Source: Pseudomonas sp. GM78
Lineage (GTDB): Bacteria > Pseudomonadota > Gammaproteobacteria > Pseudomonadales > Pseudomonadaceae
Reading direction: 5' to 3'
Assembly (NCBI RefSeq): GCF_000282475.1
Contig: NZ_AKJF01000088.1
Coordinates: 1-51,531 of the forward strand
DNA: 51,531 nucleotides
The position numbers and the translations under genes were made by a program. Positions 8,122 to 34,943 of this stretch are shown in pieces. The first letter of the stretch is position 1; each line of letters begins with the position of its first letter. The notes beneath the pieces are model-generated. The model saw nothing but the letters and a program-made list of their open reading frames with translations. It searched no databases and was not told the DNA's origin.

Positions 8122-8292
8122 TTGCGCATCGACCCGCCAAGCGGCCCTGATCGCACCGACAAGGCAGATGACTTTCTCGCCAAGTCCCACAGCCGGACGC
8201 AAGATCCGGGTGTACGTTTTGAAGGCTGGCGCGGTTTACCAAAAATGAACCAAGCCAGTCCCCGAGAAGCCGGCCACAAGCCGGCTTTTTAA
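8122..8292 (+). CDS. possible small ORF or small RNA ending in the att terminator
   Basis: An open frame from TTG 8122 to TAA 8290-8292 would encode 56 residues (LRIDPPSGPDRTD... ending GHKPAF). A TATGCT box at 8105-8110 could start a transcript that ends at the terminator at 8269-8290, so the same stretch could equally be a small RNA of about 170 bases. There is no good ribosome site at the TTG. The stop codon lies inside the 26-bp att repeat, so integration leaves this 3' end intact. I see no recognisable family. Confidence 0.25.
   Translation: MRIDPPSGPDRTDKADDFLAKSHSRTQDPGVRFEGWRGLPKMNQASPREAGHKPAF
8269..8290 (+). terminator. terminator within attL
   Basis: GCCGGC-CACAA-GCCGGC followed by TTTTT is a compact Rho-independent terminator for rightward transcription. 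It forms most of the att direct repeat. Confidence 0.8.
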
Positions 8293-8294
8293 TG
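8269..8294 (+). repeat. attL direct repeat
   Basis: A 26-bp sequence beginning GCCGGCCACAAGCCGGCTTT is identical to 24522-24547. Identity ends at 8268 (A versus T) and 8295 (C versus T), so 26 bp is the full exact repeat. Left of it is ordinary chromosome (ppa and the S24 repressor). Confidence 0.9.
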
Positions 8295-8778: not shown

Positions 8779-9570
8779 TCACCTCACGCAGCCAAGGAAC
8801 ATCATTACGATTCGATAGGCTGGTTCGTAACAGGCCAGGACTCTAGGGTCGGGGTCCACCTCTCCATGCAGGAGGGCATTTCGCATCGTATAGATTGTTT
8901 CTACTAATCCGGAAAGCAGCTCATCCGGGGGACATTGAAACTCCATTGTTCCGATTTGCAGACGCTCGGTTCCACCACGAAGGAGGTTGCGCATAGGGCG
9001 CGGATTGCAGCCGTCATAGAGCTGGCGAAGGGTCGTCTGCTGCGAACCAGATAAATTCGCGGTGAACTCAGGCAAGCCATAAACTGCATTCGGATCATAT
9101 TGCGCCTGGACGTGCTGGAGCTTTACGCTCTGGTTGCGAACCGAAACTACGGTGATCTGGATACTGCCGCCTGCAACCTTCTCTGCCTTGTATTCATGTC
9201 CGCTGCGCTCGATGCGTTCGCGGTTGAAATGCCTAGGTGTAATGCAGACGCTACGGAGCGAAATTTGCTCATTCACGCCTTTTCGAGTTACTTCGAAATG
9301 AATGCCATCCAGGCGGGTTTGCAAATCCGATATAGCGAGTTTTAGCGCCTGCGCTTCGGCGGTATCGTTTTCATTTCGTAGCAAGGCAAGAACGCCGCGA
9401 CGAACTGGGTTGGGTTGCCCTTTTATCCAGTCAAGCATGGCCCGCTCTTGCTGTTGGGCAGAGGCGTGACGGAACCAAGCATTGAAGGCAGCCCAAGCTT
9501 TGACGAAGGGGCCTATATAATCGATCTCGGCACGGCTCATCCAGTCAGCGGCGTGTGGAGGTAGGGCCAT
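8779..9570 (-). CDS. HEPN-domain protein (predicted RNase) coupled to the restriction genes
   Basis: 263 residues. No named family recognised with certainty. The C terminus reads ETIYTMRNALLHGEVDPD, containing R230-NALL-H235, the R-x4-H motif of HEPN RNases, followed by a helix. The N terminus (residues 14-35, AEIDYIGPFVKAWAAFNAWF) has the aromatic helix seen at the start of many HEPN proteins. The middle part is strand-rich and unassigned. The ATG overlaps the hsdS stop (TAATG), with GGAGG seven bases upstream inside hsdS, so it is made in step with HsdS. Inference: an RNA-targeting effector or toxin held by the restriction complex, by analogy with anticodon nucleases such as PrrC embedded in type I loci. 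A structural role cannot be excluded. Confidence 0.65.
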   Translation of the reverse strand: MALPPHAADWMSRAEIDYIGPFVKAWAAFNAWFRHASAQQQERAMLDWIKGQPNPVRRGVLALLRNENDTAEAQALKLAISDLQTRLDGIHFEVTRKGVNEQISLRSVCITPRHFNRERIERSGHEYKAEKVAGGSIQITVVSVRNQSVKLQHVQAQYDPNAVYGLPEFTANLSGSQQTTLRQLYDGCNPRPMRNLLRGGTERLQIGTMEFQCPPDELLSGLVETIYTMRNALLHGEVDPDPRVLACYEPAYRIVMMFLGCVR

Positions 9571-10961
9571 TAGATCGCCTCCACTGTTTGGTCGAGGTAA
9601 GCAATGGCAGCGGGCTCCCCTTCTTCAATCGCAATTTCGACAGCCCGTTTCGCCGCCTCCAACAGATTGGCCGCGTTGGCCTTTGCCGCCTTCGCCGCAA
9701 TCACGTCCTGCGTCACTTGATAGGCCACAGCATCCGGAATATGGGGCAGTGGCAGGTTGAAAATATCGGCGTCGGTAATCGCGGGATACATGCTAGCGCT
9801 GGCATAGAGGTCCAGCAGTTCGCAAATCACCGGCAGACGCAGATAGGTGAGTAAAACTTCGGGGGCAATCTCGCGCGGCTTCACTACAACGAAACCGGAT
9901 GAGCAGACAAACCCGTCCTGTTCTGGCGCAATCTGGGACGATAGACGGCGGATCGGACGAACGGAGGAAGTGATGATATCCCCGGACCGTACATGCCATG
10001 TGGCGCGACTAGGCGCGTCTACCGAAGCGAGGCGGGTACTAGTAGTTGCCCCCGCCCCGTCGAGGTCACTGATCTCGATATAGTCGAAGGTCTCGCAGGC
10101 ATCAGGTTTGAACTTCTCGCGCCGTGGATCGGCTACGTCCGCAACGGTGCGCCCATCCACTGCCAACAGGTCGAGCAATGCCTGAATTCGGGGGGCGAAG
10201 AACCGAGCGTCGAAGCGGCCGGACGCGAAGACATCCTTTGCGCTAGCGGTGTAGGCGAGCGGTTCGGGCGGCGTCCATTCAGCAAGGCCGAGGGCGGCAA
10301 GCAAAGCCTGCTCAGCAGCAACTAGTCGTTCTGAAGCGGCGAGTTGCAGCGAATGTGCGGCCCCGAACTTCTCAGCGATCCAATTCTGGATCTTAAAGTC
10401 AAGGAGTGGAACGGGGATTTCCTTGACCTCTTCAGGGTTTACATTGGTCTGGTTAATCGACTGTCGAGAACGTCGCTTCACATCGGCCGATCCAAACCGA
10501 GAGCTTAGGAATGCCACGAGCATTTCCGGAAGCAGCGTTTCTTTTTTCGTCTGGAAACGGACCAAGTAGGATGCAAATACCGGTGCATTTGCTCCGCCCC
10601 CAAGAAACAACCCGGTTCGCCCCACCCACTCATAAGAATTGGTGCGGTTAAACAAAACATCACCTGGCTCCAGACGAAACAGTCGGGCTTGTCGATCATC
10701 CAACTCAGCGCATTTATCTACGTCTAGGTCACAGAGCATGTTGTGGATTTCGTTCATCCGATAAATCGGAATGCCTATGCCGTCTTCGTTCATTTCAATA
10801 GAGACGCCGTATTGCGACAGCTTTAGATGCTCCCCAATTGGTTCATAGTTAAGAGCTGGGTTTCGATAAGGCTCCTTGGTCCAGAAATCACTGTCGATAC
10901 GCTGATCCTTGTTGTCGCGAACCAGTGCTAGCGAGGCAACTCTGACCTCAAGCCCCTTCAT
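9570..10961 (-). CDS. hsdS: type I-like specificity subunit, two target-recognition domains
   Basis: 463 residues with the classic HsdS layout: a first TRD (about 1-185) ending QSINQTNVNPEEVKEIPVPL, a conserved helical spacer (about 188-225, IAEKFGAAHSLQLAASERLV), a second TRD (about 235-410, with EISDLDGAGATTSTR and VRSGDIITSSVRP), and a final helix-rich stretch after NLPLPHIP. Each TRD reads one half of a bipartite DNA site for the partner methylase. The start overlaps the upstream stop (ATGA) and the end overlaps the HEPN gene (TAATG), so the three genes are translationally chained. The target sequence cannot be read from the protein by eye. Confidence 0.92.
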   Translation of the reverse strand: MKGLEVRVASLALVRDNKDQRIDSDFWTKEPYRNPALNYEPIGEHLKLSQYGVSIEMNEDGIGIPIYRMNEIHNMLCDLDVDKCAELDDRQARLFRLEPGDVLFNRTNSYEWVGRTGLFLGGGANAPVFASYLVRFQTKKETLLPEMLVAFLSSRFGSADVKRRSRQSINQTNVNPEEVKEIPVPLLDFKIQNWIAEKFGAAHSLQLAASERLVAAEQALLAALGLAEWTPPEPLAYTASAKDVFASGRFDARFFAPRIQALLDLLAVDGRTVADVADPRREKFKPDACETFDYIEISDLDGAGATTSTRLASVDAPSRATWHVRSGDIITSSVRPIRRLSSQIAPEQDGFVCSSGFVVVKPREIAPEVLLTYLRLPVICELLDLYASASMYPAITDADIFNLPLPHIPDAVAYQVTQDVIAAKAAKANAANLLEAAKRAVEIAIEEGEPAAIAYLDQTVEAI

Positions 10962-12994
10962 CGGATTGCTCCGGCGGTCTGGGCCGAAGGGCCGGTCGGA
11001 AAAAAACTGAAGCCCTCCTTGCGGGCGAATTCCTCGAAGGCTTCAGTAATCCCATCCTCGGTGAGCCCATCGTGGTTAAACAGGTCATGCGACACAACGA
11101 AATGGCCATGAGTGTCGCGCATGAATGTGCCGTCCGGGTTCTTGCGATAGACCTTACATCCCGAGTTATCGACGCTTTCCACCTGCTGCGTGGCGAAGAA
11201 AATGTCGTAGTCTTCGACCTTCGGGCAAAGCGGCCCCATCACCGGATCATCGTTCCATTTCTGTACGAACAGAACACTGGTCTTGGTGCCCGTATGCGGC
11301 TTGAAGGTATTCTGGTGCAGGCCCACCACGGCAAGAATGCGGCAGCGCTCCATGATGAACTCGCGCAGCTGCTGATCAGTCCCGTTGTTGAACCGCCCCT
11401 GAGGCAGCACAACCGCCATACGCCCGCCGGGCTTGATGAAGTCGAGGTTGCGCTCTATGAACAGCAGGTCACGGGCAACAGCGCGCTCCAGCTTGCCGTT
11501 CTTCTTGTGGGCCAATTCATAGGATGACAGCATGTCGGATTGTTTGATGTCACCGGCAAAGGGCGGGTTCGCCATCAGCACATCGAAGCCGAAGTTGCGG
11601 TAATCGCTTTGGCGCGGGTTCTCACGTAGCTTACGTAGCCGCCGCCAGCCGTCACCGTAGCTATCTTGCCAGTCGTCCTGTTTGACCGTCTCGTCCCATT
11701 TGGTCCAGTCGAGTGTGTTCAGGTGCAGAACGTTCGTTTCGCCATCGCCAGCGATAAGATTCAGACATCGCGCGACTCGGACGCTTTTCTCATCGAAATC
11801 AATGGCGAACACGTTATCGCGCACATAGTCAATGCACCGCGGTGGCTTGGCCTCCATAGTGAAGAGGTGGCTTTCCTCTCGCCCCATCGCCCGCATGATC
11901 TGGCGCCAAACGTGGAACATGCTGTGCACAGTGAACCCTGCCGAGCCGCAGGCCGTGTCGATCACTGTCTCGCCCTCTTTCGGGTTCATCATTTTGACGC
12001 ACATGTCGATCACCCAGCGAGGGGTGAAATACTGACCTTTCTCACCTTTTGACGATTTGGAGACCAGGTATTCAAATGCGTCGTCGATCACGTCCAGGTT
12101 AGAGTTGAACAACTTCCACTCTTCGAGAGACCCGACACAGACTTGCAGGTGATCGGGCGACAGACGGATGCGCTCATCCGAGAGGAAGACCCCCGGCCAT
12201 TTTTGTTTAGCATCATCGAACAAGTTCTGAATCGCGGTCTTGAGCTGGGCGGCGGTGTTCTGGTTGCGAAACCGCAGGGCACTGCCAAGCCGGTGCGAAG
12301 TCATCTCGTCATAGAGCTTCGTAAATATCAGCTTGAACACTTCCTCGAAGACGTCAACACCGGCATTGGCTAGCACCTCGTCTTCCATATCCTCGATCAG
12401 ATCGCGCAGGGACCGGGCAAACTTGCCTTCCTTCACCCGCTCATCTTCAAGGGCGATCAGGGTTTGAATCGTCCACGGCTGATCGACGACCTGTTCGATG
12501 GTCTGATCCGCGCGGGGAAGCTCATGGATCGACATGAAGTAATTGGGGTTCTTGCGATGCCAGACCTCGTCCAGAATGCCATCGCTCCACACTGCAAGGG
12601 GCGCACCGGTCGCATGGGTGTAGGAACGGAGCTGCTCCTTGCCGTCTTTAAACTTGGCCTGTTTCACTTCGACAATGATGTAAGGGACAGTCGGGCGGTC
12701 AGCGTCAAACACCACAATGTCAGCCCGCTTGGAACTGTCACGTCCGAATGTGATCGGGTATTCAACAGCAATACGGGACCTCGCGTAGCCTAGCTTGTTG
12801 ATCAGACGAGCTAGCCAGAGTTGGCGGGTACGTTCCTCGGCTTTGAGCTGCACCTCCTTGTCGCGAACGAGGCATCCCACATAAGGTATCAGCTTGCCAC
12901 GGTTCTCTCTCATGACCACGCGATCATCAAGTGCGCGGACCTCCTCTGCGGAAAACAGAACGAATTCGCTGAACTCAGCGGCAATTTTACTCAT
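10958..12994 (-). CDS. nuclease-methylase fusion: HsdR N-terminal domain plus N6-adenine DNA methylase (RM subunit)
   Basis: 678 residues. Residues 40-160 look like the HsdR N-terminal nuclease fold: E53/E54 in KAEERTRQLW, D92 in RADIVVFD, and E109-x-K111 in IIVEVKQAK form a PD-(D/E)XK set. Residues about 200-640 are a gamma-class N6-adenine methylase with GQYFTPRWVID (320-330), SAM motif I DTACGSAGF (346-354) and catalytic NPPF (476-479). No HsdR translocase gene is present on the island. Cutting and methylation may therefore sit in one chain paired with a separate HsdS, as in BcgI-like type IIB enzymes; that parallel is inferred from domain order and size. AAGGA precedes the ATG by about 11 bases. 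It is the first gene of a three-gene minus-strand operon. Confidence 0.85.
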   Translation of the reverse strand: MSKIAAEFSEFVLFSAEEVRALDDRVVMRENRGKLIPYVGCLVRDKEVQLKAEERTRQLWLARLINKLGYARSRIAVEYPITFGRDSSKRADIVVFDADRPTVPYIIVEVKQAKFKDGKEQLRSYTHATGAPLAVWSDGILDEVWHRKNPNYFMSIHELPRADQTIEQVVDQPWTIQTLIALEDERVKEGKFARSLRDLIEDMEDEVLANAGVDVFEEVFKLIFTKLYDEMTSHRLGSALRFRNQNTAAQLKTAIQNLFDDAKQKWPGVFLSDERIRLSPDHLQVCVGSLEEWKLFNSNLDVIDDAFEYLVSKSSKGEKGQYFTPRWVIDMCVKMMNPKEGETVIDTACGSAGFTVHSMFHVWRQIMRAMGREESHLFTMEAKPPRCIDYVRDNVFAIDFDEKSVRVARCLNLIAGDGETNVLHLNTLDWTKWDETVKQDDWQDSYGDGWRRLRKLRENPRQSDYRNFGFDVLMANPPFAGDIKQSDMLSSYELAHKKNGKLERAVARDLLFIERNLDFIKPGGRMAVVLPQGRFNNGTDQQLREFIMERCRILAVVGLHQNTFKPHTGTKTSVLFVQKWNDDPVMGPLCPKVEDYDIFFATQQVESVDNSGCKVYRKNPDGTFMRDTHGHFVVSHDLFNHDGLTEDGITEAFEEFARKEGFSFFPTGPSAQTAGAIR

Positions 12995-13429
12995 TGAATC
13001 TTATCCTTGGTTTTCTCGATGCTGGCAGGCTACTTAACGTGATGGCTTGATCTGAAGAATAACGCGCCGCCCGCTGTTTAACCGAAAGCTGTAATGGTTG
13101 GTGGGCCGACATACTACGCGAATGTCAACGTGGAGCGGGCGGCAGTCTTGCCACGCGCAGACAGATAGGGGACGGATTTATTTCCGTTTTCTTAATAGGT
13201 AGCGTCTGGCCACAGTGTGCGGAACGCCTTCAGGAACGCTTGCTATGATTTCTAAGGATCTCATCACAGGGATCACCCATGAGGTATTTATTCAAGGTGA
13301 GCATCGAAGCCGGGCTACCTTACCTCCCGAGAGCCTCAGCGACTAAAACGCGTCACTTTGGGCTACTAATATTGCGAACAGGACAGAGGCGGCTAACCGC
13401 CCTTCGCCACGAATTTGAAGGAACGACCG
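12995..13429. other. divergent intergenic region between the RM operon and the helicase gene
   Basis: 435 bases carry the promoters for both divergent units. On the plus strand an extended -10 (TGCTATGAT) lies at 13241-13249. A 54-codon frame at 13279-13443 is the only ORF candidate. No palindromic operator or control-protein gene is obvious. Confidence 0.5.
13241..13249 (+). promoter_or_regulatory. extended -10 promoter for the helicase gene
   Basis: TGCTATGAT matches the extended -10 pattern TGnTATAAT at all but one position. No good -35 is found 17 bases upstream, as is usual for extended -10 promoters. It would give a leader of about 170 bases before the helicase ATG. Confidence 0.45.
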
Positions 13430-13443
13430 ATGGTACTAATTGA
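13279..13443 (+). CDS. possible small leader ORF overlapping the helicase start
   Basis: An ATG frame of 54 residues (MRYLFKVSIEAGLPYLPRAS... ending TTDGTN). AGGGA precedes the ATG by about 8 bases. Its stop lies 11-13 bases inside the helicase frame, so translation of one could affect the other. No family is recognised; it may be only a chance frame in the leader. Confidence 0.25.
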   Translation: MRYLFKVSIEAGLPYLPRASATKTRHFGLLILRTGQRRLTALRHEFEGTTDGTN

Positions 13444-16400
13444 AGGCGCTCGCTCGCTCCCTACTCAGCACATTACCGTTCGCGTGCCATGGCACGACCA
13501 GCGTTGGAACGGCACGCTCTGTAAAGACCCTTGCGCCAACACCTCATGTATGGTCCTGCCACGGGTAGGTACCGGTAGAGATGATGTATTCGAACAGAAG
13601 TGCGCCGGACAATCACTGCAAGGCCTGACCGAAAGCGATCTACCGCCATGTGTCGACGAACATGGAACCTTCATGGCGGATTTTGGGCTTAGCAAACTTA
13701 AGACACACCCTTACCGCAACGTTGAAACACATATGCATTTCGCTGAGACGCCAGTCAGGCTAGATCCTTTCGCGGCTGCGGCAATTCCTTTTCGTTGGAT
13801 GCTGAAAAACAACGTCGAAGGCGTCAAGCGTGACATGTTGTCTGGCCTAGCTAAATCCCTTGCGCTTGGTTACAACCCCGCCAGGGAACCGTCCATGCCG
13901 GAGTCGATTCCCGATACCTGGATACAGGAAGGTACTAACCAGCAGATTATGCTGGATACTTTTTTCAGCGCCATTGAGCCACAGGAATCCTTGGTCTTTT
14001 TCTATGCCAAGCGCACACCGCTATCGGAATCGCCGCGCCGCGTCATCGTCGGCGTTGGACGGGTGACTGGTGTAGGCAAACCAGTCGAATACCACTACAC
14101 AGGCGGCAAGCGACGCGAGAATCAGATGTCGGGCTTCCTCTGGGAGCGGACGTTGACTCACTCCATCCGAATTGACGGCAAACGTAACCTCGATGGTTTC
14201 CTGCTGCCGTATCATGATCTGTTGGCGCAGGCCGAACAAAATGAGCACCTGGAGCTTGAGCGTTGCATCGCCTTCGCCCCGGACGAAGCTTTCGAGCAGT
14301 ACTCGTACGGCTCGGAGCTGCTTCACCATGACAACGCGATCGCCTCTCTGCTAGCCATAGAACACGCTCTGCTAGAGATCTCACGGGTCATGCCAGGACC
14401 TTGGGCGGAATACCGGTCCTGGGTCGATCGAGAGCTCAATAGAATCTGGAAGCTGCGCGGTTCCTTCCCAGGAATTGGCGCGGCTCTGTGCGCCTTCGGC
14501 GTTGAGCGAGGCAACCTCCTAGGCTGGCACTTAGCCGCCCAGTGTCAGGAAGGTGATACGCAGTCGGCGTGGGATCACTTTGAGACGGTCCTGAAGCATC
14601 CCGAAAGCTTACCGCGACATTTACAGAACACTGTTGGCCCAACTCTCGCGCGCAAATGGGAAGGACTGGACAGCGGCCGGAGGGCGCTGCTCATGCTGCT
14701 CAGCCGCTTCGAGCTCAGCACCGACCAGGCGCAGTTCTGGTACTCCGCCGAGATGCGTAAAGCTTCTGGCATCAAGGACTCAGACCAGGCCCTACGCGAA
14801 AACGCCTATTTACTGTTCGAATATTTACACGAGCACGCCCTCCCTTTTAACGTTGTCGATCGCGGGCTTTTCGGTGCACGTGACTTAGAAGGCCCCAACG
14901 CTCTCCCAGCTGAAAGTTGCTTATTCGAAGCGACAGATCCCCGACGCGTCCGAGCGCTGATAGTCGATCTGCTGGAGCAAGCAGCGATTGAGGAAGGCCA
15001 TACGATTCTCCCTGAAACTTGGACGATAGAGCGCATCCGCTCACGAGCTATCGAGCCAGTCTGTCCGGTGGATGCCGACCTCCTGCCTCTCTTCGACGAA
15101 GACCTGCTGCCATTCGTTGTACTAATCGAAGATGAGGGCAGAAGAAGCTATCAGCTCAAGCGCTACGAACAGACCCGAATCTGCATCGCCGACGAGGTGG
15201 AGTACCGCCATAAGAGTGCGAGCAAGACTGAAGAGTTTGATTGGGTTGATCTGGTCAATGAGGCAATTGGCAAGGGACAGGACAACCCAACAGCCGACAT
15301 TCAAGAGGAAGAGGCCCGGAAGGAGAAGGCAGCAGCACTTCAAATGCTCTACCAGCGCCGCATCAGCGTGCTACTGGGCGCTGCAGGCACTGGAAAGAGC
15401 ACCCTAATCAAGGCTCTGTGCCGCATTCCGGCAATCCAGGACAGTGGCGTCTTGTTACTCGCCCCAACCGGCAAAGCGCGGGTGCGACTGGAGCAAGCCA
15501 GCGGAATGCCCGGACAGGGCGAAACCATCGCCCAATTCCTGAATCGCTTCGATCGCTACGACGGTACCCAAGGCCGCTATTTCATGAACTCATATGGCCG
15601 CCGCGCAACAGGGTACAAAACCGTTGTGATCGACGAGGCATCCATGCTGACAGAAGATCAGCTAGCGGCAACTCTGGACGCCCTGCAGGGAGTCGATCGG
15701 TTGATACTCGTTGGCGATCCGAATCAGTTGCCTCCGATTGGCGCAGGCCGCCCCTTCGTCGACATTTGCCACTGGCTTCAACCGGAGCAAGTTGCCAGCT
15801 CTGGAGTTCGAGTCGTCGATGGCTATGCCGAGCTACTAGTCACGCGCCGCCAACAAACCGGTGAGGACCGCGACGACTTGGCCTTTGCCAATCTGTTCAA
15901 GGGCGAGGCACAGGATGCCGGCGCCGATGCGGCCTGGAACCAACTCACTACAGCCAATTCACCCAGAATGGGTGTCCTAACCTGGGAGTCGACCGAGCAT
16001 CTGGCTTCCCTGTTGCGCGAAGCGATGGCCCGGGAGCTGAAGTTCTCTTCACCTGATGACAGCCTCACTTTTGAGCAGAGCTACGGCGGTAGCCTGTACG
16101 AAGGCAAGGTGTTCTTCTGGCCTCGGATGCAGGAGCAAAGCAGCGGTGGCGCAGCAGAGAAAGCCGAGGACTGGCAGGTCCTGACGCCGCTGCGTACCTC
16201 GGCAGTTGGTTCGGATGCACTCAATCGACAACTACAGACCCATTACCGGACGTTTGCCTTGGCACTCAGCGGAAGCAGCGGTTGGCGCCGCATTCCGAGG
16301 CCTATGGGGCCGAGTCGGTTGCTGTGGGGTGACAAAGTCATCAATGTACAAAACAGGTCAGGCCGCACTTGCTATCCGAAGAATCCGGACTCCTATGTGG

Positions 16401-17236
16401 CCAACGGCGAGATAGGCGTGGCGACCGGTTACTTCCGGCGAAAGGACAACAAGTATCTTTTCGAACAGCTTCAGGTCGAAATGGCCACCCAACCCGGAGT
16501 GGAGTTCCATTACAAACCATTTGAATTTGGAGCCGATAGAACCGCGCCGCTCGAGTTGGCGTACGCTCTAACGGTGCATAAAACCCAAGGCAGCGAGTTT
16601 GGTACCACCTTCATCGTGATTCCAAAGCATTGCCGACTGCTAACACGGGAAATGCTCTATACGGCTCTGACCCGGCACAGGAATAAGGTGGTGCTGCTAA
16701 TCCAGGGCAAGCTGTCGGACCTTTTCTCCTACAGCCAAGATTCCGCCTCTGAGATTCGGCGGCGCATGACCAATCTATTCCAGACCTCCACCCCGGTGAC
16801 ATTGCAGGTGGATAATCGCACTGTCACTCTTGATGACAACCTGATCTATCGTACAGATCGCGACGAACTCGTCCGCTCGAAGAGTGAATGGATCATTGCC
16901 GATAAGCTTCATGCAGCCGGAGTTCGATACATCTATGAGTATCGGATGAAATTGGGCGGCACCGAGCGCTGGCCAGACTTCGTCATCAATGACGATCATC
17001 GCGGTCTGACTTGGTACTGGGAACACTTGGGCCGTATGGACAAGCCGGATTACCGCGCACGCTGGGAAATCAAGCGTAAGGCCTACGAAGCACAGGGAAT
17101 TGTTCCCATGGAGGAATACGTGCCTGGGCGATCGACAGGCATCCTGATCACCACCGAGGAGGATGGCCAAACGAGAGACCTGAGCGAGCAAATTACCGCA
17201 CGAATTTCGCTTATCCGTAACCCAGGTCTACTCTAA
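13430..17236 (+). CDS. giant RecD-like superfamily 1 helicase with C-terminal PD-(D/E)XK-like nuclease
   Basis: 1268 residues. The first 600 or so are unassigned, with no motif I can name. The helicase core follows: Walker A GAAGTGKST (650-658), Walker B VIDEAS with D735-E736, motif III GDPNQLPPIG, and the RecD-type C-terminal block ALTVHKTQGSEF plus LYTALTRHRNK. Residues 1140-1230 resemble restriction-fold nucleases attached to helicases: KSEWIIADKL, then PDF with D1183, then WYWEHLG with E1198, then a lysine-rich helix. The ATG at 13430 has GAAGGAA about seven bases before it and is preferred to a TTG at 13415. It is transcribed away from the RM operon. Inference: a DNA-unwinding and cutting effector of a defence system, alone or with the RM/HEPN genes. 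A fully conserved ExK lysine is not obvious. Confidence 0.85.
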   Translation: MVLIEGARSLPTQHITVRVPWHDQRWNGTLCKDPCANTSCMVLPRVGTGRDDVFEQKCAGQSLQGLTESDLPPCVDEHGTFMADFGLSKLKTHPYRNVETHMHFAETPVRLDPFAAAAIPFRWMLKNNVEGVKRDMLSGLAKSLALGYNPAREPSMPESIPDTWIQEGTNQQIMLDTFFSAIEPQESLVFFYAKRTPLSESPRRVIVGVGRVTGVGKPVEYHYTGGKRRENQMSGFLWERTLTHSIRIDGKRNLDGFLLPYHDLLAQAEQNEHLELERCIAFAPDEAFEQYSYGSELLHHDNAIASLLAIEHALLEISRVMPGPWAEYRSWVDRELNRIWKLRGSFPGIGAALCAFGVERGNLLGWHLAAQCQEGDTQSAWDHFETVLKHPESLPRHLQNTVGPTLARKWEGLDSGRRALLMLLSRFELSTDQAQFWYSAEMRKASGIKDSDQALRENAYLLFEYLHEHALPFNVVDRGLFGARDLEGPNALPAESCLFEATDPRRVRALIVDLLEQAAIEEGHTILPETWTIERIRSRAIEPVCPVDADLLPLFDEDLLPFVVLIEDEGRRSYQLKRYEQTRICIADEVEYRHKSASKTEEFDWVDLVNEAIGKGQDNPTADIQEEEARKEKAAALQMLYQRRISVLLGAAGTGKSTLIKALCRIPAIQDSGVLLLAPTGKARVRLEQASGMPGQGETIAQFLNRFDRYDGTQGRYFMNSYGRRATGYKTVVIDEASMLTEDQLAATLDALQGVDRLILVGDPNQLPPIGAGRPFVDICHWLQPEQVASSGVRVVDGYAELLVTRRQQTGEDRDDLAFANLFKGEAQDAGADAAWNQLTTANSPRMGVLTWESTEHLASLLREAMARELKFSSPDDSLTFEQSYGGSLYEGKVFFWPRMQEQSSGGAAEKAEDWQVLTPLRTSAVGSDALNRQLQTHYRTFALALSGSSGWRRIPRPMGPSRLLWGDKVINVQNRSGRTCYPKNPDSYVANGEIGVATGYFRRKDNKYLFEQLQVEMATQPGVEFHYKPFEFGADRTAPLELAYALTVHKTQGSEFGTTFIVIPKHCRLLTREMLYTALTRHRNKVVLLIQGKLSDLFSYSQDSASEIRRRMTNLFQTSTPVTLQVDNRTVTLDDNLIYRTDRDELVRSKSEWIIADKLHAAGVRYIYEYRMKLGGTERWPDFVINDDHRGLTWYWEHLGRMDKPDYRARWEIKRKAYEAQGIVPMEEYVPGRSTGILITTEEDGQTRDLSEQITARISLIRNPGLL

Positions 17237-17548: not shown

Positions 17549-17761
17549 TCAGTCCAAGATCTCGCGACGAACCTTGTCCTGCTCGCGCAGCTCTTCGGCC
17601 AGATCTCGCAGCAGCGGCCTCATCCCCCCTGTCCATGCATTGCGCGATGCAGCCGCCTTACCCTCGGCGCTTCGCGGTCCGGTGCTTTGCTCCCAAGGTC
17701 GCCATTGCCGGATCAGCTCCGCCTGCCGCGCCCGTCGCTCGGGTGTCCATCCGTTTGCCAT
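17549..17761 (-). CDS. small island protein, overlapping the gene upstream
   Basis: 70 residues starting MANGWTPERRARQAELIRQW, with an RPWEQSTGPRSAEGKAAASRNAW stretch that I associate with small proteins on proteobacterial islands and prophages; function unknown. It is basic and may bind nucleic acid (inference). A perfect GGAGG lies six bases before the ATG at 17761, which is strong evidence for translation. It starts 104 bases inside the end of the gene upstream, in a different frame. Confidence 0.65.
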   Translation of the reverse strand: MANGWTPERRARQAELIRQWRPWEQSTGPRSAEGKAAASRNAWTGGMRPLLRDLAEELREQDKVRREILD

Positions 17762-18263
17762 GCTCAACCTCCAATAGTTCGTTCTGCATTTTTTTGGTTT
17801 TCCGCGTGCGCGCGGGCTTCTCTTGAATACCGTTGTTGACCTGGACCTGATTGCCGATGTTCGCCTGTTTCACGAAAGCGACCTGCTTGGGGATTTTGAG
17901 TTCGGTCAGGGTCTGTAAGGTAGCCCTGGCCTGGTTCTGGGCCTTTAGCGCGAGGCGCATGTAGGATTGCAGTCCATCCATGTGCTTGGCCCTCAGTGCC
18001 CGACTTGCGAGCTGCGCGAAAAGAACGTCCAGAGTGTGCGCCTGCGCCACCAGCATATTTTCTGCTCGAGTCATGTCGCCGTTGTTGATTGCAGCCGTCT
18101 GCCGCTTCAGCTCGAGGACAACATCGGTAACCGGCGACTCGCCGAGCAGGTTGCTACTAACAAGCAATGCCGCACTCAAGGTCTCCGGGGTCAGGCAATT
18201 GCGGGCGAAAGCCTGTTCCTCAGTTTCCTCCATGGTTAACTTCTCTTTCAGGGCACTGCTCAT
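17658..18263 (-). CDS. island-encoded hypothetical protein
   Basis: 201 residues, largely helical. A central stretch (about 25-110) includes LLVSSNLLGESPVTDVVLEL and a segment MRLALKAQNQARATLQTLTE, then a conserved-looking KQVAFVKQANIGNQVQVNNG. The C terminus is basic and low in structure. This type of protein is seen on Pseudomonas and other proteobacterial islands without a known function. The ATG overlaps the stop of the gene before it (ATGA), with GGAGG upstream. It is part of the replication-module operon. Confidence 0.7.
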   Translation of the reverse strand: MSSALKEKLTMEETEEQAFARNCLTPETLSAALLVSSNLLGESPVTDVVLELKRQTAAINNGDMTRAENMLVAQAHTLDVLFAQLASRALRAKHMDGLQSYMRLALKAQNQARATLQTLTELKIPKQVAFVKQANIGNQVQVNNGIQEKPARTRKTKKMQNELLEVEHGKRMDTRATGAAGGADPAMATLGAKHRTAKRRG

Positions 18264-18832
18264 TCGCTCACCTCCATAGGGGTATTGTTATACCGCTGAC
18301 GCAGATCAAAACCAGCCGCACAGTAACGGCTCGTTGCCGCATGGCAGGCGCGGCAGCCCATTAGGTGGTTGGTGTATGTCGCATCGGCCTCTCGCCATAC
18401 CTGTGACGCCGTAGCGGCGGTGTGGACGGTGTACTGTCGTGCAGGTTCCTCAGCGGCGTGGATCTCGGCCGGTTGCTCGACTCGCTGCGACCCGTTGATC
18501 CATGCTGGGCTGGCGCGGATCGTGTCAGCCACCAGAGTCGCGTCCGTACCGGCTAGCTCGGTAAGGTCGTGCGGCTCCAGATGACTGCCTTCCAGCAGTA
18601 CGGCAGGACGGGTGTCGAGCAGGCGCGCGACGCGGGCCAACCATGCGCGTGACGGCACCGGATCGTTGGCGGCTTTCAGTGCGGTGATGATCTCGACCTT
18701 GTGGGCAACCAGTTCGGCCAGCAGGTCGTCTGACGGCTGGCGATCAGCGCGCAATTGCAGGCAACCATTCTGCCCGATCGCCATCTCGACGCCGGCCTCA
18801 CCCGCACGTTGCATCAGCTCCGCGGCGTTCAA
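18260..18832 (-). CDS. hypothetical protein with TubC-like N terminus and C-terminal cysteine cluster
   Basis: 190 residues from a TTG at 18832, chosen because TTGA overlaps the previous stop and GGGAG lies about eight bases upstream; a GTG at 18862 would also fit the frame. Residues 1-55 (AAELMQRAGEAGVEMAIGQN... LLAELVAHKVEIITALKA) resemble the small helical TubC-type docking fold. The C terminus has CRACHAATSRYC, a possible zinc-binding cluster. The middle is unassigned. It overlaps both neighbours in the operon and may help the primase module assemble (inference). Confidence 0.6.
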   Translation of the reverse strand: MNAAELMQRAGEAGVEMAIGQNGCLQLRADRQPSDDLLAELVAHKVEIITALKAANDPVPSRAWLARVARLLDTRPAVLLEGSHLEPHDLTELAGTDATLVADTIRASPAWINGSQRVEQPAEIHAAEEPARQYTVHTAATASQVWREADATYTNHLMGCRACHAATSRYCAAGFDLRQRYNNTPMEVSE

Positions 18833-20514
18833 AGCATTAACTCCCACTTCTGCTCGCAGCACGCGCGCGCTGATGCAGGGGGTTGCGGATTCTGCGGACT
18901 CTGCGGAAGGACGAGCAACTGCTGGGGTACTGCGCGCGGAAGCACTGCGGAAATTTGCGGGAGCGCTTCAGATGCTGGACGAGTAGCGCAGGTAAACCGT
19001 GCAGTTTCCGCAATTTCTCGTAGTTCTTCCGCAATCGCAAAGCCGCGCAATTGCTGGGTTTCCGCAGAATCCGCAACTTCCGCAAGGGGATTGATCCTGA
19101 ATTGCTTACCGTCGCTGCTCAGCAGGTGCTGATGTTTCATCAAAACGGCCAGTACTTTGTCGCGCACCTTGGCCGAACGCACCGCAGCCGGTCCCGACTT
19201 GCCCAGATCATTGACGTGGAACTCTTGCCACGTGGCCGTGCGCTTGGGATCGCGCAACCAACTCATCAGCTCGACGGCAACCTTCTGTTCAGGATTAACC
19301 GGGGTCGCATCGGTGTAGCGCTGCCACTCAGAGAGGGAGTAACGCACCAACTTGCACGCGTAGCGCATGCAGTCACCATCAATCTGCTCAACGCCACCAA
19401 AGAGGCCAAACACCGCAGCCAAGCGCAACGCCTGCTCGGCGCCGCGGGCGGCGAACGGCTTCAGGCCAGCGAACTTTCCGAGCGGCCCACGCTCGCTCTC
19501 GATCTCGTTGCGGAAGTCTACCCATACCTGTTTAGCCTCTGCATTAGGCTCCAGAACAGGCGGGGTGACCTCGCCTGTTTCCGGGTCGATACGTTCCGGG
19601 GTGTCGGCGATTTCTTTACAGCGCGACCAGTACGCTTGCAGGCGTGGGTCTGTGTAGGCGCTGTGCTGCAGTGACTCGATGGTGATGAAGCAAGTGCCGG
19701 CCAGGCTAACCGGAGCAGCGAGCAGGAAGCGTGCTAGAAAGCCCTGCCCGACCAACAGCGGATCGCTCAGTGCCCCCGCCACGGCCACCGCTTGCGCCAT
19801 CAAGTGAATGCTCAGGCGGCGGTTGTAGGCCACGCCAGAGCCTTCAAGGTTGCCGCGCGAGCGGGTGCGCTCGAATTTCCCTGAGGAATAGACTGTCGTC
19901 AGGCCGCCGAGGGTCGCGGCCACGGTGTCAGCCTTAAGCGAGTGACCACCGAGCATTTGCCCACCTTCGTCCGTGTCCCAGCTTGCAGCCGACTTGCCCC
20001 GGATGAAGTCGCCAACCAGCGGCTCGAAAGTAGCATCGCTGTATTGGGTCCTCGGATCGGATGGCAGCGGGTGCACAGCCAGAAACTCATCACGTGCCTT
20101 GCCTTTCAGGCCGGCAGCAATTGCCTCAATCTCGGCGCAGGCTTGGCGGTGGTGGGCGCGTGCCTCTTTCTCCGCTTCGTCAATCGTCTTGAAAGCCAGT
20201 TCACGCGCGCTCGACTTGCCCTCCCCCGAATCGAAAAGCGACAGCATGAACAGCGAGCAGGGCGCTCCTTCCGGCTTGCCCTTGAAGTGCCAAGCGTTGA
20301 CACGCGTCTGCGCCAGGTGGGTGACTGCTCCGACAACGCACTGCCCGGCGATGGCGGCAGGTACCATTGCATGCTCGATAATCGCCTCGACTGCGCCGCG
20401 CATTTCGTAGGTCAGGGCGTCCAGGGGGTAGAGCGTGGGCGGCATGGCGTCCGGAAGCAGCGGTTTAGGCACCAAACCTGCCGGACTCTTAATCTCGGTC
20501 ATCAGCGCATTCAT
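18829..20514 (-). CDS. DUF3987 family protein (primase-associated, YfjI-like)
   Basis: 561 residues. It matches the DUF3987 proteins found beside toprim primases on phage-like islands. Visible blocks: an early PLDALTYEMRGAVEAI, a P-loop-like LFDSGEGKSSA (about 94-103), LVGDFIRGKSAASWDTDEGGQML, and RRLSIHLMAQ. It is likely an ATP-dependent helper of island replication in the cytosol; its exact activity is not established. The ATG at 20514 overlaps the primase stop (ATGA). The 3' third of the gene carries an unusual set of TGCGGA repeats, listed separately. Confidence 0.85.
   Translation of the reverse strand: MNALMTEIKSPAGLVPKPLLPDAMPPTLYPLDALTYEMRGAVEAIIEHAMVPAAIAGQCVVGAVTHLAQTRVNAWHFKGKPEGAPCSLFMLSLFDSGEGKSSARELAFKTIDEAEKEARAHHRQACAEIEAIAAGLKGKARDEFLAVHPLPSDPRTQYSDATFEPLVGDFIRGKSAASWDTDEGGQMLGGHSLKADTVAATLGGLTTVYSSGKFERTRSRGNLEGSGVAYNRRLSIHLMAQAVAVAGALSDPLLVGQGFLARFLLAAPVSLAGTCFITIESLQHSAYTDPRLQAYWSRCKEIADTPERIDPETGEVTPPVLEPNAEAKQVWVDFRNEIESERGPLGKFAGLKPFAARGAEQALRLAAVFGLFGGVEQIDGDCMRYACKLVRYSLSEWQRYTDATPVNPEQKVAVELMSWLRDPKRTATWQEFHVNDLGKSGPAAVRSAKVRDKVLAVLMKHQHLLSSDGKQFRINPLAEVADSAETQQLRGFAIAEELREIAETARFTCATRPASEALPQISAVLPRAVPQQLLVLPQSPQNPQPPASARACCEQKWELML
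18882..19084. repeat. inverted clusters of TGCGGA hexamers, candidate replication origin
   Basis: TGCGGA starts at 18884, 18893, 18902 and 18946. The reverse complement TCCGCA starts at 19007, 19028, 19061, 19070 and 19079. Three copies on each side have exact 9-bp spacing. A perfect 17-bp inverted repeat links 18882-18898 with 19061-19077. All of it lies in the 3' end of the DUF3987 gene, but the two arms are read in different frames and give different amino acids, so protein repetition does not explain it. Confidence 0.5.
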
Positions 20515-21581
20515 GCCCGCTCCTCCCGCCATACGGCCAAATCGTTGAAGTCGGAGAGATGCAGGGGCGCATCCTCCGGCCAGGCCGGTAGGACGTACCC
20601 GCAGTCAAGCATCGCAGCCGCATGGATGGTCGCCAGCTTGCCCGCGTTGGGCCTGCCCTCGGCTTCCTTTGCGCGGTCATCGTCGCCGCCGACAATCAGC
20701 ACAGCATTGGGGTAGTGGCGCTTCAACTCCAAGCCGGCCCGCAGCACATTGCCGGCGCTCATTGCAGCAGCGACCGGCTTGCCGGTCTGCTCGTGAAGCG
20801 TCGCGGCAGTGGCGATACCCTCGACTATGAACAGCTCGACGCCGGGCTCGATACGCCCGAACGGGCAGTAGCAGCCATTGATCCGGCCACCCGAAGGGAA
20901 ACGCTTGTTGCCGTCGGCCGCGATGCGTTGAAGATTCACCACTTTGCCGCGCCAGCAGATCGGAGCCAGCAGCACGTCGCCGAGCTGACGCAGGTGGTGG
21001 GGCTTGATGCGTTTGCGGGCCAGGTACGAATGATTGGGATCAGCCGGCCTGGCGAGCGCCCAATCGCGACGCGCACGGACGGCGGCGCGATCCCACCCGG
21101 CTTGCTGCTCTGCATTGGTCTGTTGTTGGCGCTGCTCGCGCCTGCGGGCGATGCGCTGACGCTCGACCTCCTCGGCGAGCAGGTCGCGCTTATGGTCGCC
21201 GCCGAACGGCAGCCCCAGTTGCCCGGCAATGATGCGGGCGGCCTCAGTCTGCCGGCAGCCGCGCAGGTAGGCCAGCAGCGACACAAGGTCGCCGCCTTTA
21301 TCGCCGCTGGCGAAGTCGTGCCAGGTGCCAGTATGCAAGTTGATGCTGAACGAGCCGGGCGTACGGTCACCGCGTACCGGGTTGGTCGGCCAGTACTCTT
21401 TGCCGATGCGCTTGCCATCCGGCAGCCAGTCAACCAGCAGATTGTCGGGATCGACCAAGGCAGCATTAGCGATGCGCTGAATCTCAATATGGACCGGCAT
21501 CAGTGCAAGCCCGCCAGCGAAGACTTTCTTCAGGCCGAACACTACCGGCCCGCGATTATTCGTGGGTTGTTGGGTAGGCAT
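20511..21581 (-). CDS. toprim-domain DNA primase of the island
   Basis: 356 residues. The N-terminal half (about 60-110) has the DnaG-like core RTPGSFSINLHTGTWHDFAS and GGDLVSLLAYL but no CHC2 zinc-finger cysteines. A charged Arg/Gln-rich linker spans about 130-160. The toprim fold follows with the catalytic Glu in ELFIVEGIATA (E254) and the acidic GGDDDR motif (D300-D302). It should lay primers for replication of the excised element. A GGGGG lies about eight bases before the ATG, which is three bases after the stop of the gene upstream. A later start at codon 28 (MPVHIEIQR) is also possible. Confidence 0.85.
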   Translation of the reverse strand: MPTQQPTNNRGPVVFGLKKVFAGGLALMPVHIEIQRIANAALVDPDNLLVDWLPDGKRIGKEYWPTNPVRGDRTPGSFSINLHTGTWHDFASGDKGGDLVSLLAYLRGCRQTEAARIIAGQLGLPFGGDHKRDLLAEEVERQRIARRREQRQQQTNAEQQAGWDRAAVRARRDWALARPADPNHSYLARKRIKPHHLRQLGDVLLAPICWRGKVVNLQRIAADGNKRFPSGGRINGCYCPFGRIEPGVELFIVEGIATAATLHEQTGKPVAAAMSAGNVLRAGLELKRHYPNAVLIVGGDDDRAKEAEGRPNAGKLATIHAAAMLDCGYVLPAWPEDAPLHLSDFNDLAVWREERA

Positions 21582-23123: not shown

Positions 23124-24368
23124 TCAGGCGCGCTTGAATTCGCCTTGAATGACGTTTGCCGCTGGCGGCGTGGTTATGAATTTCGCCCAATCGGCCATCA
23201 AGACACGGCGTTTCTCGATGAAATCGGATCGGGAGTACGCGGCCTCGGTTTGGTCGCGCTCGTCATGGGCTAGCGCCAGCTCGCAGACTTCGCGCGGATG
23301 TTGAGTGCATTCGTTTGCCCAGTCACGGAAGCTCGACCGGAAGCCGTGACGGGTCACGTCATCATGCCCTAGGCCGTGCAAGAGGTTGCGGATGGCATTG
23401 GCATGCATAACGCCAGTCTTACCTTGGCCAGGGAACAGGTACGAGCTGCCCTCGATCCGCGGCAGGGCTTCGAGCAGCTCGACAACCTCGGGAGCAAGGG
23501 GAATGTTGAAGGCCTGCTGCATTTTCATCCGCTCGGCAGGCAGCGCCCAAATACCCGCCTTCAAGTCAAACTCCGACCATTTTGCAAAGCGGACCATGAG
23601 CGCGCGCGCACCAGTGAGTATCAGCAGGCGAGCCGCCATAGCGGCGCGAGATTCGTCCATCGCCAGCTTAACCATAAGCGTCGGCACATCCTTCCACTTC
23701 ATCGCGGGGAAGTGCTGGCGCTGGCGGGCTTTCTTCTTTTCCACCTTGCTCAGCAGGCTGTCCAGATGCCCGCGCCAGCGGGCCGGATTGTCGCCTTCGC
23801 GCAGCTTGTGCGCCTTGGCGGCATCTAGGACCTGCTCGATTTGTCCACGCACCTCATCGGCGGTGCGGGTTTTGGTTGCCCAGATGGGGCGAAGTACTTT
23901 TAGGACCTGCTCGGTCTGAATCTCAGCAGCAGGCAACCTGCCGATGATGGGGAAGGCATAGAGCTCTAGTTTTCGTAACCAGCCTTTACGCCACTTTTCC
24001 GACCAGGCAGAACCATGAGCGCTCCGGTATTCGGTCGCAAGCGACTCAAAAGTCACACGACGCGTTTGCGCTTGCCGCTCTGCTTCACGCTTCGCTTCTC
24101 GCTCTTCATCGCGAGCCGCCAGAGGGTCACCGCCAGCAACCAAAATCTTGCGTTGATCAGCGGCGAGTTCGCGGGCCTTCGCAAGGGTTACGGTTGGAAA
24201 TGGGCCTAGCCCCATTTCCCGGCCTTTACCTTCAAGCTTGTAGCGGAAAATCCAACTGGAAACCCCGGCTTTGCTTATCTGGAAATACAGACCATCACCA
24301 TCGTTGGTCTTACCTGTACCTCCAGACCGGACAAGTGATTCGATTGCCTTAATTGTCAGCTTGCCCAT
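23124..24368 (-). CDS. int: P4-type tyrosine integrase
   Basis: 414 residues. The N-terminal arm-binding domain (1-90) has the DUF4102 pattern: DGDGLYFQISKAGVSSWIFRYKLEGKGREMGLGPFPTVTLAKARE. A SAM-like core-binding domain follows (about 105-200). The catalytic part has Arg in LTGAR, the HGFRSSFRDWA box, a second His in LALAHDERD, and the Tyr nucleophile in AAYSRSD. The residue normally Glu after the first catalytic Arg is changed (GARALMVRF), but all nucleophilic and basic residues are present. It is the last gene before the right att site, as expected for an element that integrates by its own enzyme. Confidence 0.95.
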   Translation of the reverse strand: MGKLTIKAIESLVRSGGTGKTNDGDGLYFQISKAGVSSWIFRYKLEGKGREMGLGPFPTVTLAKARELAADQRKILVAGGDPLAARDEEREAKREAERQAQTRRVTFESLATEYRSAHGSAWSEKWRKGWLRKLELYAFPIIGRLPAAEIQTEQVLKVLRPIWATKTRTADEVRGQIEQVLDAAKAHKLREGDNPARWRGHLDSLLSKVEKKKARQRQHFPAMKWKDVPTLMVKLAMDESRAAMAARLLILTGARALMVRFAKWSEFDLKAGIWALPAERMKMQQAFNIPLAPEVVELLEALPRIEGSSYLFPGQGKTGVMHANAIRNLLHGLGHDDVTRHGFRSSFRDWANECTQHPREVCELALAHDERDQTEAAYSRSDFIEKRRVLMADWAKFITTPPAANVIQGEFKRA

Positions 24369-24521: not shown

Positions 24522-24547
24522 GCCGGCCACAAGCCGGCTTTTTAATG
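24522..24547 (+). repeat. attR direct repeat, also a terminator
   Basis: An exact copy of 8269-8294. The stem GCCGGC/GCCGGC is followed by TTTTT on the plus strand. On the minus strand it is preceded by magF and followed by ATTTCTTT, so it can also end the mag operon. Confidence 0.9.
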
Positions 24548-24576: not shown

Positions 24577-25389
24577 TCACGGATAACTAAACGACTTAAC
24601 CAACGTCAACTCCCCCACCGCCCGCATCGGCACCAAAAAAGTCTCCATCTTCTCACTCGGCGTCCCCTCCTCCGTAATCACCGTCACCTGCGCCGTCGTC
24701 AGCGGTTGAACCGCATCCTCCTGCCCTTCCTCATCGCTGCGATACCCACCACCAAAGTAATTCACATACACCAGATACTGCCCCTTGATCGGCGCAGGCA
24801 TGGCGAAGATTTCCGGGCCGTAGCCGGTGGTGACGTCGACATCGAGGGCGGCGCCGTTTGGCACGGCGCGGTCGCCGTACCAGATGTGGGCGCCGTCGGG
24901 GGTGATCAGGTGCAGGTCGAGGTCGGTGCCGTCGCTGTCCCAGGCCAGCAGTACCCGCAGCTTGGCGGGTGTGGCTCCGACGCTGGTGTTGAGGAACTGG
25001 GTTCGGCGGCGCTGCTGGCCGTCAGGGCTGCGGACTTCGACGCTGTTGCTGCCGTTGGGGAATGAGAATGGCCGATCGAAGCCGCCTGCTGGATCGATTT
25101 TCAGGGGCATGCTGACGCCGTTGACGATCAGCCGGCCGGGTTCGGCGTTCTTCGGCGCTGCTTTGATCTGACCCGTGATGCGCGCGGTGTTGGCCTGCCC
25201 CGCCGGGGTGTTCACCGATGAAGCCGGGTAGTTGACGGTCTGGCGGAAGCTTTCCCCCTCGCCTTCAAGAGCGCCGGTTCGCCAGCCGCCAGAGGGGGTG
25301 TCGAGTTTGACACTGTCGGCAGCGGTTGCCGGTGATAGCACGGCGAGCGCGCAGAGCAGCAGCAAGACCTGTGGATAACGATCTGTCAT
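24577..25389 (-). CDS. magF: MagF, DUF2135 (YfaP-like) periplasmic protein
   Basis: 270 residues with a signal peptide (MTDRYPQVLLLLCALAVLSPATA). The DUF2135 part shows LAWDSDGTDLDLHLITPDGAHIWYGD and GPEIFAMPAPIKGQYLVYVNYFGGGY, a beta-rich domain with an acidic, possibly metal-binding DxDLDLH stretch. It is the last gene of the mag operon, three bases after the magE stop. In P. aeruginosa the six-gene mag cluster encodes a bacterial alpha-2-macroglobulin complex at the inner membrane/periplasm. It is a paralogue of magA at the other end of the operon. The island attR lies 30 bases beyond its stop. Confidence 0.88.
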   Translation of the reverse strand: MTDRYPQVLLLLCALAVLSPATAADSVKLDTPSGGWRTGALEGEGESFRQTVNYPASSVNTPAGQANTARITGQIKAAPKNAEPGRLIVNGVSMPLKIDPAGGFDRPFSFPNGSNSVEVRSPDGQQRRRTQFLNTSVGATPAKLRVLLAWDSDGTDLDLHLITPDGAHIWYGDRAVPNGAALDVDVTTGYGPEIFAMPAPIKGQYLVYVNYFGGGYRSDEEGQEDAVQPLTTAQVTVITEEGTPSEKMETFLVPMRAVGELTLVKSFSYP

Positions 25390-25392
25390 GGC

Positions 25393-27024: not shown

Positions 27025-27025
27025 A

Positions 27026-33926: not shown

Positions 33927-33962
33927 TTCACAAAACCCGAATTCATCCGTGGAGCGGGATGC

Positions 33963-34751: not shown

Positions 34752-34943
34752 GTGACGCCTCCTGCCATGCATGACGAAACCTTGCGCCTGATCCTCGGCG
34801 CGTTACAGATGCGGATACTGCGTTTCGTCTGAAAGACCCATGACTTTCGGGTCGTAGATGGCGCGAAGGTTAGACGCTCAGTTAGCGCCTAACAATCAGA
34901 TCTGTCTGAAAATGCGGTGGGAATCACGTACGCGGCTGGACGA

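Follow-up and report, generated by a model that had tools for sequence, protein, structure and literature searches.

The 51,531-nt stretch analysed here (the window), from contig NZ_AKJF01000088.1 of Pseudomonas sp. GM78, carries a restriction–modification (RM) gene followed by genes for a specificity (S) subunit and a 263-aa HEPN-like protein and, next to them, a gene for a large helicase. A first-pass annotation of this DNA had read the four as a single possible defence system. The open reading frame (ORF) check of the window located all four where that annotation had placed them. The comparisons described below divide them into two modules, RM–S–HEPN (12994–8779, minus strand) and the helicase:

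8779..9570, minus strand: putative HEPN-like effector, 263 aa, R-x4-H motif RNALLH (R230, H235)
9570..10961, minus strand: S subunit, 463 aa, two target-recognition halves
10958..12994, minus strand: RM protein, 678 aa, N-terminal PD-(D/E)xK nuclease (HSDR_N_2) fused to an N6-adenine methylase
13430..17236, plus strand: PDC-S68 helicase, 1268 aa, RecD-like superfamily 1 (SF1) core and PD-(D/E)xK-like C-terminus; most likely independent cargo

The RM and S genes overlap by 4 nt and the S and HEPN genes by 1 nt, and attachment (att) repeats bound the region, so the tightly coupled operon on an integrated island proposed earlier was borne out. The helicase gene adjoins the operon and is transcribed divergently from it, both lying inside one element; its start was set at the ATG at 13430, the TTG at 13415 being also conceivable by the ORF check.

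The RM–S–HEPN unit and its relatives

The RM protein matched the Pfam models HSDR_N_2 (8.4e-27) and N6_Mtase (6.6e-32), and Pfam found no helicase domain in it. Residues D92, E109, K111 and Q121 and the methylase motif N476-PPF-479 were invariant in 10 aligned RM sequences. Nuclease and methylase thus share one polypeptide, as in the type IIB (BcgI-like) RM enzymes, and the separate S subunit of two halves is also present: S matched type I specificity models (PADLOC Specificity_I) in both halves, as well as the S subunits 5ybb and 3okg in the PDB. By profile, the solved structure nearest to RM was RM.BsaXI (8w0p; 123 bits, profile positions 210–594, the methylase region). The HsdR with a translocase motor that type I RM requires was found neither by Pfam nor in the unit common to the relatives. 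Only the N-terminal nuclease domain of HsdR occurs, within RM, in agreement with the first reading that HsdR is absent.

R230 and H235 of the 263-aa protein were invariant across 30 aligned sequences with identity down to 24%, and the R-x4-6-H motif of the HEPN superfamily, recognised already in the first pass, is therefore carried by all 30 rows. Several N-terminal residues (W10, D17, F22, K24, W26, F29, N30 and W32) were also strongly conserved in this alignment. The AlphaFold2 model was confident (predicted local distance difference test 90.4, predicted template modelling score 0.81) and placed R230 on the helix 215–234 and H235 just past it, with helical N- and C-terminal parts and strands between 93 and 155. 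We consider it likely that the protein belongs to the HEPN superfamily. No model of Pfam, NCBIfam or PADLOC matched it at E 0.1; annotation from these libraries would therefore see the restriction enzyme and miss the predicted effector.

A scan anchored on HEPN, over genome contigs of one genome for each of 84,980 species, gave 26 loci; 12 of these are complete for 10 kb on either side, and the others are truncated by contig ends. By the record names they are mostly from Proteobacteria, with one cyanobacterium and one acidobacterium. S stood directly upstream of HEPN in 25 of these 26 loci from other genomes and RM, whole or in part, upstream of S in 23; with longest-ORF starts, the exact 1-nt S/HEPN overlap recurred in 17 of the 25 loci with S. 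The exceptions were L022 (S cut at the contig end and RM on a separate contig), L035 (a stop in the HEPN range and no RM match) and L041 (neither RM nor S match). At L026 the RM match was limited to a 64-residue stretch, and at L028 RM and S form a single ORF.

The limits of DNA homology with the window were compared for seven close relatives, of which L017 is cut by a contig end. In L004, L015, L016 and L018 the homology began approximately where RM starts and ended no more than 7 bases from the HEPN stop, and it was interrupted inside S by gaps or unlike stretches. In L033 and L034 the homology stopped inside HEPN after about 62 codons. RM and HEPN identities were correlated over the 26 loci (r = 0.71, Mantel 0.0005; 0.51 for RM and S), hence the partners have for the most part been inherited as a set. 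When L134 and L136, the two most divergent rows, were left out, the resulting HEPN profile gave 52 matches in 199 sequences (5181 ORFs), and every weak match followed S; it recovered both left-out rows and also L122, L143, L179 and L174, again all after S. A Klebsiella plasmid and two chromosomal elements of E. coli carry the operon as well. Altogether, these comparisons indicate that RM–S–HEPN is a conserved mobile unit.

HEPN matches on Klebsiella plasmids (H43–H80) are widespread remnants: 38 of the 40 matches listed, out of 466 records, cover residues 131–263 only, and one record of the 466, two of which were examined, covers at least 80% of HEPN. No HEPN homologue was detected in phage records at E 1e-5. 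On three viral contigs, terminase- or portal-like ORFs recognised by eye stand beside HEPN homologues (L010 2003–2824, L011 836–1714, L013 5604–6278), and the viral-contig HEPN is possibly a phage-borne exclusion gene. Other genes were seen downstream of HEPN in bacterial loci. Two DUF262 genes come after it in L004 (11302–14531) and L014 (14709–17938), that is, on the Klebsiella plasmid and the E. coli elements, and Mrr-type (type IV restriction) genes matching Pfam Mrr_cat follow it in L022 (1444–2337), L117 (4230–5207) and L122 (4802–5770), the L117 copy being PADLOC PDC-S02.

Exchange of the gene after S

The third place of the operon was surveyed with RM as the anchor. Searches of 398, 385, 369 and 386 genomes gave 15, 5, 5 and 14 genomes with a match within the limits applied, counts that include the own or centre genome and overlap in part; two overlapping viral-contig surveys gave 5 and 15 loci. 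In the plasmid search contexts were read for 3 of 10, and the phage search gave 9 records, as matches only. The tally took in 18 loci, those in which RM reached about 50% identity, S was supported by a sequence match and what comes after S could be read. Set aside were L036 (its genome, G418, had been chosen as centre of the cyanobacterial search because of its HEPN), L173 (S by eye only, then an unassigned 202-aa ORF), L180 (no S match), those cut by contig ends (G104, L133, L169, L171, L181, L185), those with RM below about 50% (L115, L123–L125, L139, L140, L142, L145–L147, L186–L188), the fused cyanobacterial RM–S genes and G124, a match without context.

The HEPN family of the window occupied the third place in 9 of the 18 loci (L116, L117, L122, L143, L134, L136, L179, L004 and L174, the last as a broken remnant), and two more had other HEPN-type proteins, namely Abi_C/AbiJ (L183, 270 bits) and NTase_sub_bind-Polbeta, i.e. 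HEPN-MNT (L119). Fic (L138, SoFic, 369 bits), TIR (L141, ThsB1, 415 bits) and DUF3800 (L118) were found once each. Two third genes had no family assignment (L121, L175) and in two loci nothing stood in line (L137, L172).

The clearest pair is L118 and L119, sisters in the RM tree, in which the RM DNA is 85% identical, the similarity ends near the 3' end of S and the third genes are unrelated (DUF3800 versus HEPN-MNT). Between L032 and L040, RM is 95% identical and HEPN only 33%. The RM tree gave 17 changes of third-gene label, a count that includes 'none' and 'unknown' labels and long-branch rows and has no shuffle control; therefore, the case for swapping rests on the pairwise comparisons. 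Judged from sequence, then, the third gene is exchanged among relatives of this RM clade. Two occupants have further features: the TIR gene at L141 (9808–10767) is of the ThsB1 type, with no ThsA-like gene seen by eye among the downstream ORFs read, and the gene after S on the viral contig L175 (10400–11632) encodes a GNAT protein whose N-terminal region, itself unassigned, has an RNTITH motif.

In the cyanobacterial search, 9 of 14 matches were fused RM–S frames. Ten fused cases were readable, PCC 7002 included. The fused gene was followed by a nucleotidyltransferase–HepT pair in three (L168, L170 and, with one ORF between, L166; Pfam), by a nucleotidyltransferase-like ORF at the contig end in one (L162), by PIN-like genes in three (L161, L164, L167), by an annotated RelE gene in one (L114) and by other ORFs in two. 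The PIN, Uma2 and lone-nucleotidyltransferase labels in Cyanobacteria were assigned by eye, without a profile, as was the S of L173. Such genomes are rich in toxin–antitoxin genes, and toxin genes behind fused RM–S are therefore weaker evidence.

A broader proposal, which we hold only tentatively and at somewhat less than even chances, is that the BcgI-like RM–S core is a general-purpose guard that offers a slot after S for exchangeable, mutually unrelated killers. The occupants of the slot would be this HEPN family, AbiJ, HEPN-MNT, SoFic, the ThsB1-type TIR and DUF3800, with the HepT pairs as further ones behind some fused RM–S genes in Cyanobacteria. If this is true, the same restriction enzyme can be combined with different suicide programmes, and recoding is possible both in specificity (S) and in response (third gene).

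The helicase and the integrative element

The helicase is the PADLOC defence candidate PDC-S68 (PDLC05065), matched over its full length (1502 bits; residues 11–1260 to profile positions 4–1216 of 1221) with no difference found; no paper naming PDC-S68 was retrieved from the open-licence PMC texts. Of its earlier description as a giant RecD-like helicase with a C-terminal nuclease-like domain, the first part stands, with a TIGR01448 match of 202 bits, under the cut-off of 500. The second part is less secure: eight homologues have the SF1 motifs in common and keep E1153, P1182-D-F1184 and E1198-H invariant in the C-terminal region, a pattern that looks like a PD-(D/E)xK nuclease, and models matched this region only weakly (HEAT_CxxC_PDDEXK, E = 0.0026).

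Some helicase match occurred in 260 of 398 genomes of the phylum, nearly all RecD-domain-sized. Long matches were found in five, the window's own genome included, four of them full length and one (G187) partial. Ten neighbourhoods of the helicase were compared, and the five with a recognisable defence-type neighbour had a different one every time: a DrmD-like helicase (G265), PglZ (G404), PDC-M26A with a weak M26B (G418) and, on plasmids, a weak TmtA match (Sphingomonas) and an annotated NACHT protein (Rhizobium phaseoli). In the remaining five none was seen, or they were not profiled (L008 lacks annotation). The helicase resembles a gene of defence islands that has no constant partner.

In the first-pass annotation the helicase figured as the fourth component, a motor for the RM–S–HEPN operon, and a neighbourhood survey had been set beforehand as the test capable of refuting this. 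In the survey, helicase and RM operon were not neighbours in any of the other loci covered. The helicase was absent from all 26 HEPN loci as available (tblastn, E 1e-8), the other four long-helicase genomes had no HEPN and no RM homologue at E 1e-10, RM, S and HEPN were missing from all four helicase loci examined on plasmids (out of 8 covered to at least 80%), the seven relatives of the RM unit had no helicase DNA in common with the window, and a viral-contig scan with the helicase gave no match. What speaks for a four-gene system is the window itself, where all four genes are adjacent, divergently transcribed and on one element, and a mild excess of the helicase in genomes with HEPN: among 27 HEPN genomes or records, 15 had a helicase match, 13 of them RecD-domain-sized and two full length, against long matches in 5 of 398, the two sets being differently drawn. 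Both genomes that have both modules keep them on different contigs. In one of these, Martelella (G404), the assembly breaks at short repeats and places RM, HEPN and the helicase on three separate contigs. The end of the helicase contig and the S-side end of the RM contig are identical over 36 nt, which was read as a probable insertion-sequence end and not as evidence of adjacency, although there is a slight chance that the two modules lie close together in this genome. The surveys largely refute the four-gene system, which we reject as extremely improbable, and the helicase most probably shares the integrated element with the operon as an unrelated passenger.

The features that define this element are:

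8269..8294, plus strand: left attachment repeat, 26 nt, terminator-like, exact copy at 24522
18829–20532, minus strand: element backbone, DUF3987 protein (Pfam)
20511–21581, minus strand: element backbone, Toprim/zinc-ribbon primase-like protein (Pfam; NCBIfam dnaG 25 bits, under the cut-off of 283.6)
23124..24368, minus strand: tyrosine integrase adjoining the right repeat (Pfam Arm-DNA-bind_3, Phage_int_M, Phage_integrase)
24522..24547, plus strand: right attachment repeat, exact copy of 8269–8294

A query of the joined flanks matched 13 of 19 genomes, the own one included. The flanks stand about 0.7 kb apart in G1514, with the repeat in single copy. The fetched stretches of G1505 and G1508 likewise hold one copy, but their flanks are separated by 9 and 13.5 kb of other DNA. 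Two copies of the repeat, one of them with a mismatch, flank 17 kb of DNA in G1512; the integrase encoded there is 65% identical, and the stretch otherwise gave no match to the 11 proteins of the element. From the att repeats, the integrase and the flank comparison, we conclude that RM–S–HEPN and the helicase most likely ride as cargo on one integrative element of about 16.3 kb. The integration site looks like a hotspot: in G1505, G1508, G1513 and G1509 (L193, L194, L197 and L198) the flanks are 9 to 46 kb apart, with other DNA between them. Near its right flank, G1508 has a homologue (70–81% identity) of the element ORF 17658–18263 (L194 1261–1846), whereas the other 10 element proteins had no match there. 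To the right of the element, 24577–34772 encodes DUF2135, DUF2300/SpoIID, alpha-2-macroglobulin and DUF2138 proteins (Pfam).

Proposed mechanism and comparison with known systems

PrrC is the best-known RM-linked suicide effector, and the account to which we lean, at slightly better than even chances, is a PrrC-like guarded suicide effector placed on a BcgI/BsaXI-like enzyme. RM and S would form one complex with both activities, methylation and cleavage, at a bipartite site; a toxic effector, kept silent by this complex or dependent on it, would be the product of the third gene. A phage that resists or disables restriction would cause the effector, here the predicted HEPN RNase, to be released or switched on; the active HEPN would then cut RNA and stop the infected cell, in the manner of PrrC with EcoprrI. 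RM is the constant part of the unit, and S (recognition) and the third gene (response) are the exchangeable ones, with divergent HEPN alleles and entirely different toxins standing in the third place in relatives. The gene unit with its boundaries, the RM motifs, R-x4-H, the third-gene exchange and the element with its att repeats were read from the sequence; complex formation, silencing, the trigger, the RNA target and phage defence are what we infer.

Several observations weigh against the guarded-effector account. Single-sequence hhalign against AbiJ-like and HepT proteins found nothing, the HEPN fold being thus a prediction. HEPN homologues occur in short viral contigs (L010, L011, L012 and L013) without an RM or S match in the available DNA, and HEPN may therefore act without this RM or travel alone. 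L016 and L004 have a further ~770 nt upstream of RM in common, so the unit may include more upstream DNA. In 4 of the 18 tallied loci the third place holds no recognisable effector, the tally itself being confined to this RM clade with no ordinary type I hsdS loci as a control, and at the TIR locus L141 the RM frame is interrupted.

The same genes could be wired differently. TIR and AbiJ-like families act as signalled effectors in other settings, and third genes of both kinds in the relatives would suit an RM–S complex that actively switches HEPN on at unmodified foreign DNA, a sensor–effector pair like the CRISPR-associated HEPN proteins. The nuclease motif of the RM core is intact, however, so DNA recognition is already answered by cutting, and the known precedent, PrrC, works by release from inhibition, as described in the available passages of the sources (PMC3710099, PMC3874165); we regard active switching as rather unlikely. 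The occurrence of the unit on a plasmid and on integrated elements, and of toxin–antitoxin pairs after some cyanobacterial fused RM–S genes, would fit a HEPN that is mainly an addiction or stabilisation toxin, with RM–S as the antitoxin and the unit maintaining itself and its element. This seems improbable to us given that the HEPN gene here has no recognisable antitoxin neighbour and that HEPN remnants persist on the Klebsiella plasmids.

The 263-aa protein could also be a structural or assembly accessory of RM–S, its R-x4-H being kept for folding or RNA binding. The strong N-terminal conservation besides R230/H235 is in line with this, and the homology of L033 and L034 stops after the first ~62 HEPN codons as if an interface ended there. 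We nevertheless judge such a role very unlikely: in the relatives, unrelated known toxin families occupy the third place, and HEPN is found in viral contigs without RM.

As the first-pass annotation had supposed, the unit belongs to none of the named systems tested in this analysis. RM and S scored against MAD2 and MAD5 of MADS (NCBIfam) with 314 of 720 and 79 of 400 bits, respectively, both far under the NCBIfam cut-offs, and membership was rejected on these scores; the further NCBIfam MADS models had no match among the 8 window proteins scanned, and a weak PADLOC mad8 match of the helicase (21 bits) is at the ATPase level. The likeness to the BcgI/BsaXI-like type IIB (type IIG) enzymes lies in the nuclease–N6-methylase RM, the separate two-half S and the lack of HsdR (PMC3874165, available passages), with the qualification that the RM.BsaXI match spans the methylase region only and that a 2RM:1S complex with two-sided cutting of a bipartite site is putative here. 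The coupled third gene, HEPN or another toxin, sets the present unit apart from them.

The passages available from Anantharaman et al. 2013 (PMC3710099) link at least 16 HEPN clades to RM systems and propose that RM subunits restrain HEPN until the RM system is neutralised. The HEPN–RM linkage is the same here; a BcgI-like RM with an exchangeable third gene is not named in those passages, and the present HEPN family differs in having no Pfam model match. Two further papers describe backup effectors of BREX and BREX-related loci, HEPN among them (2026, PMC12839542), and PARIS, an abortive system triggered by an anti-restriction protein (PMC9122126). In view of these reports, this kind of system is already known. 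No paper joining type IIB, restriction–modification and HEPN was found among the open-licence PMC texts, and within the literature searched the combination of an unmodelled HEPN family with third-gene exchange in one RM clade appears to be new.

In EcoprrI–PrrC, as in the present unit, an RM operon includes a gene of the HEPN-type RNase class (predicted here), and the guarded suicide logic described for PrrC in the available passages (PMC3710099, PMC3874165) would be common to them. PrrC carries an ABC-ATPase domain and belongs to a complete type IC hsdMSR operon, whereas the protein studied here has 263 aa, no Pfam match and thus no HEPN–ABC-ATPase fusion, and stands in an operon without HsdR. 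A small two-subunit enzyme with a swapping third gene would make it possible to study, in compact form, how a toxin is held back or triggered by a restriction complex, and whether unrelated effectors such as RNases, TIR and Fic can be controlled by one core.

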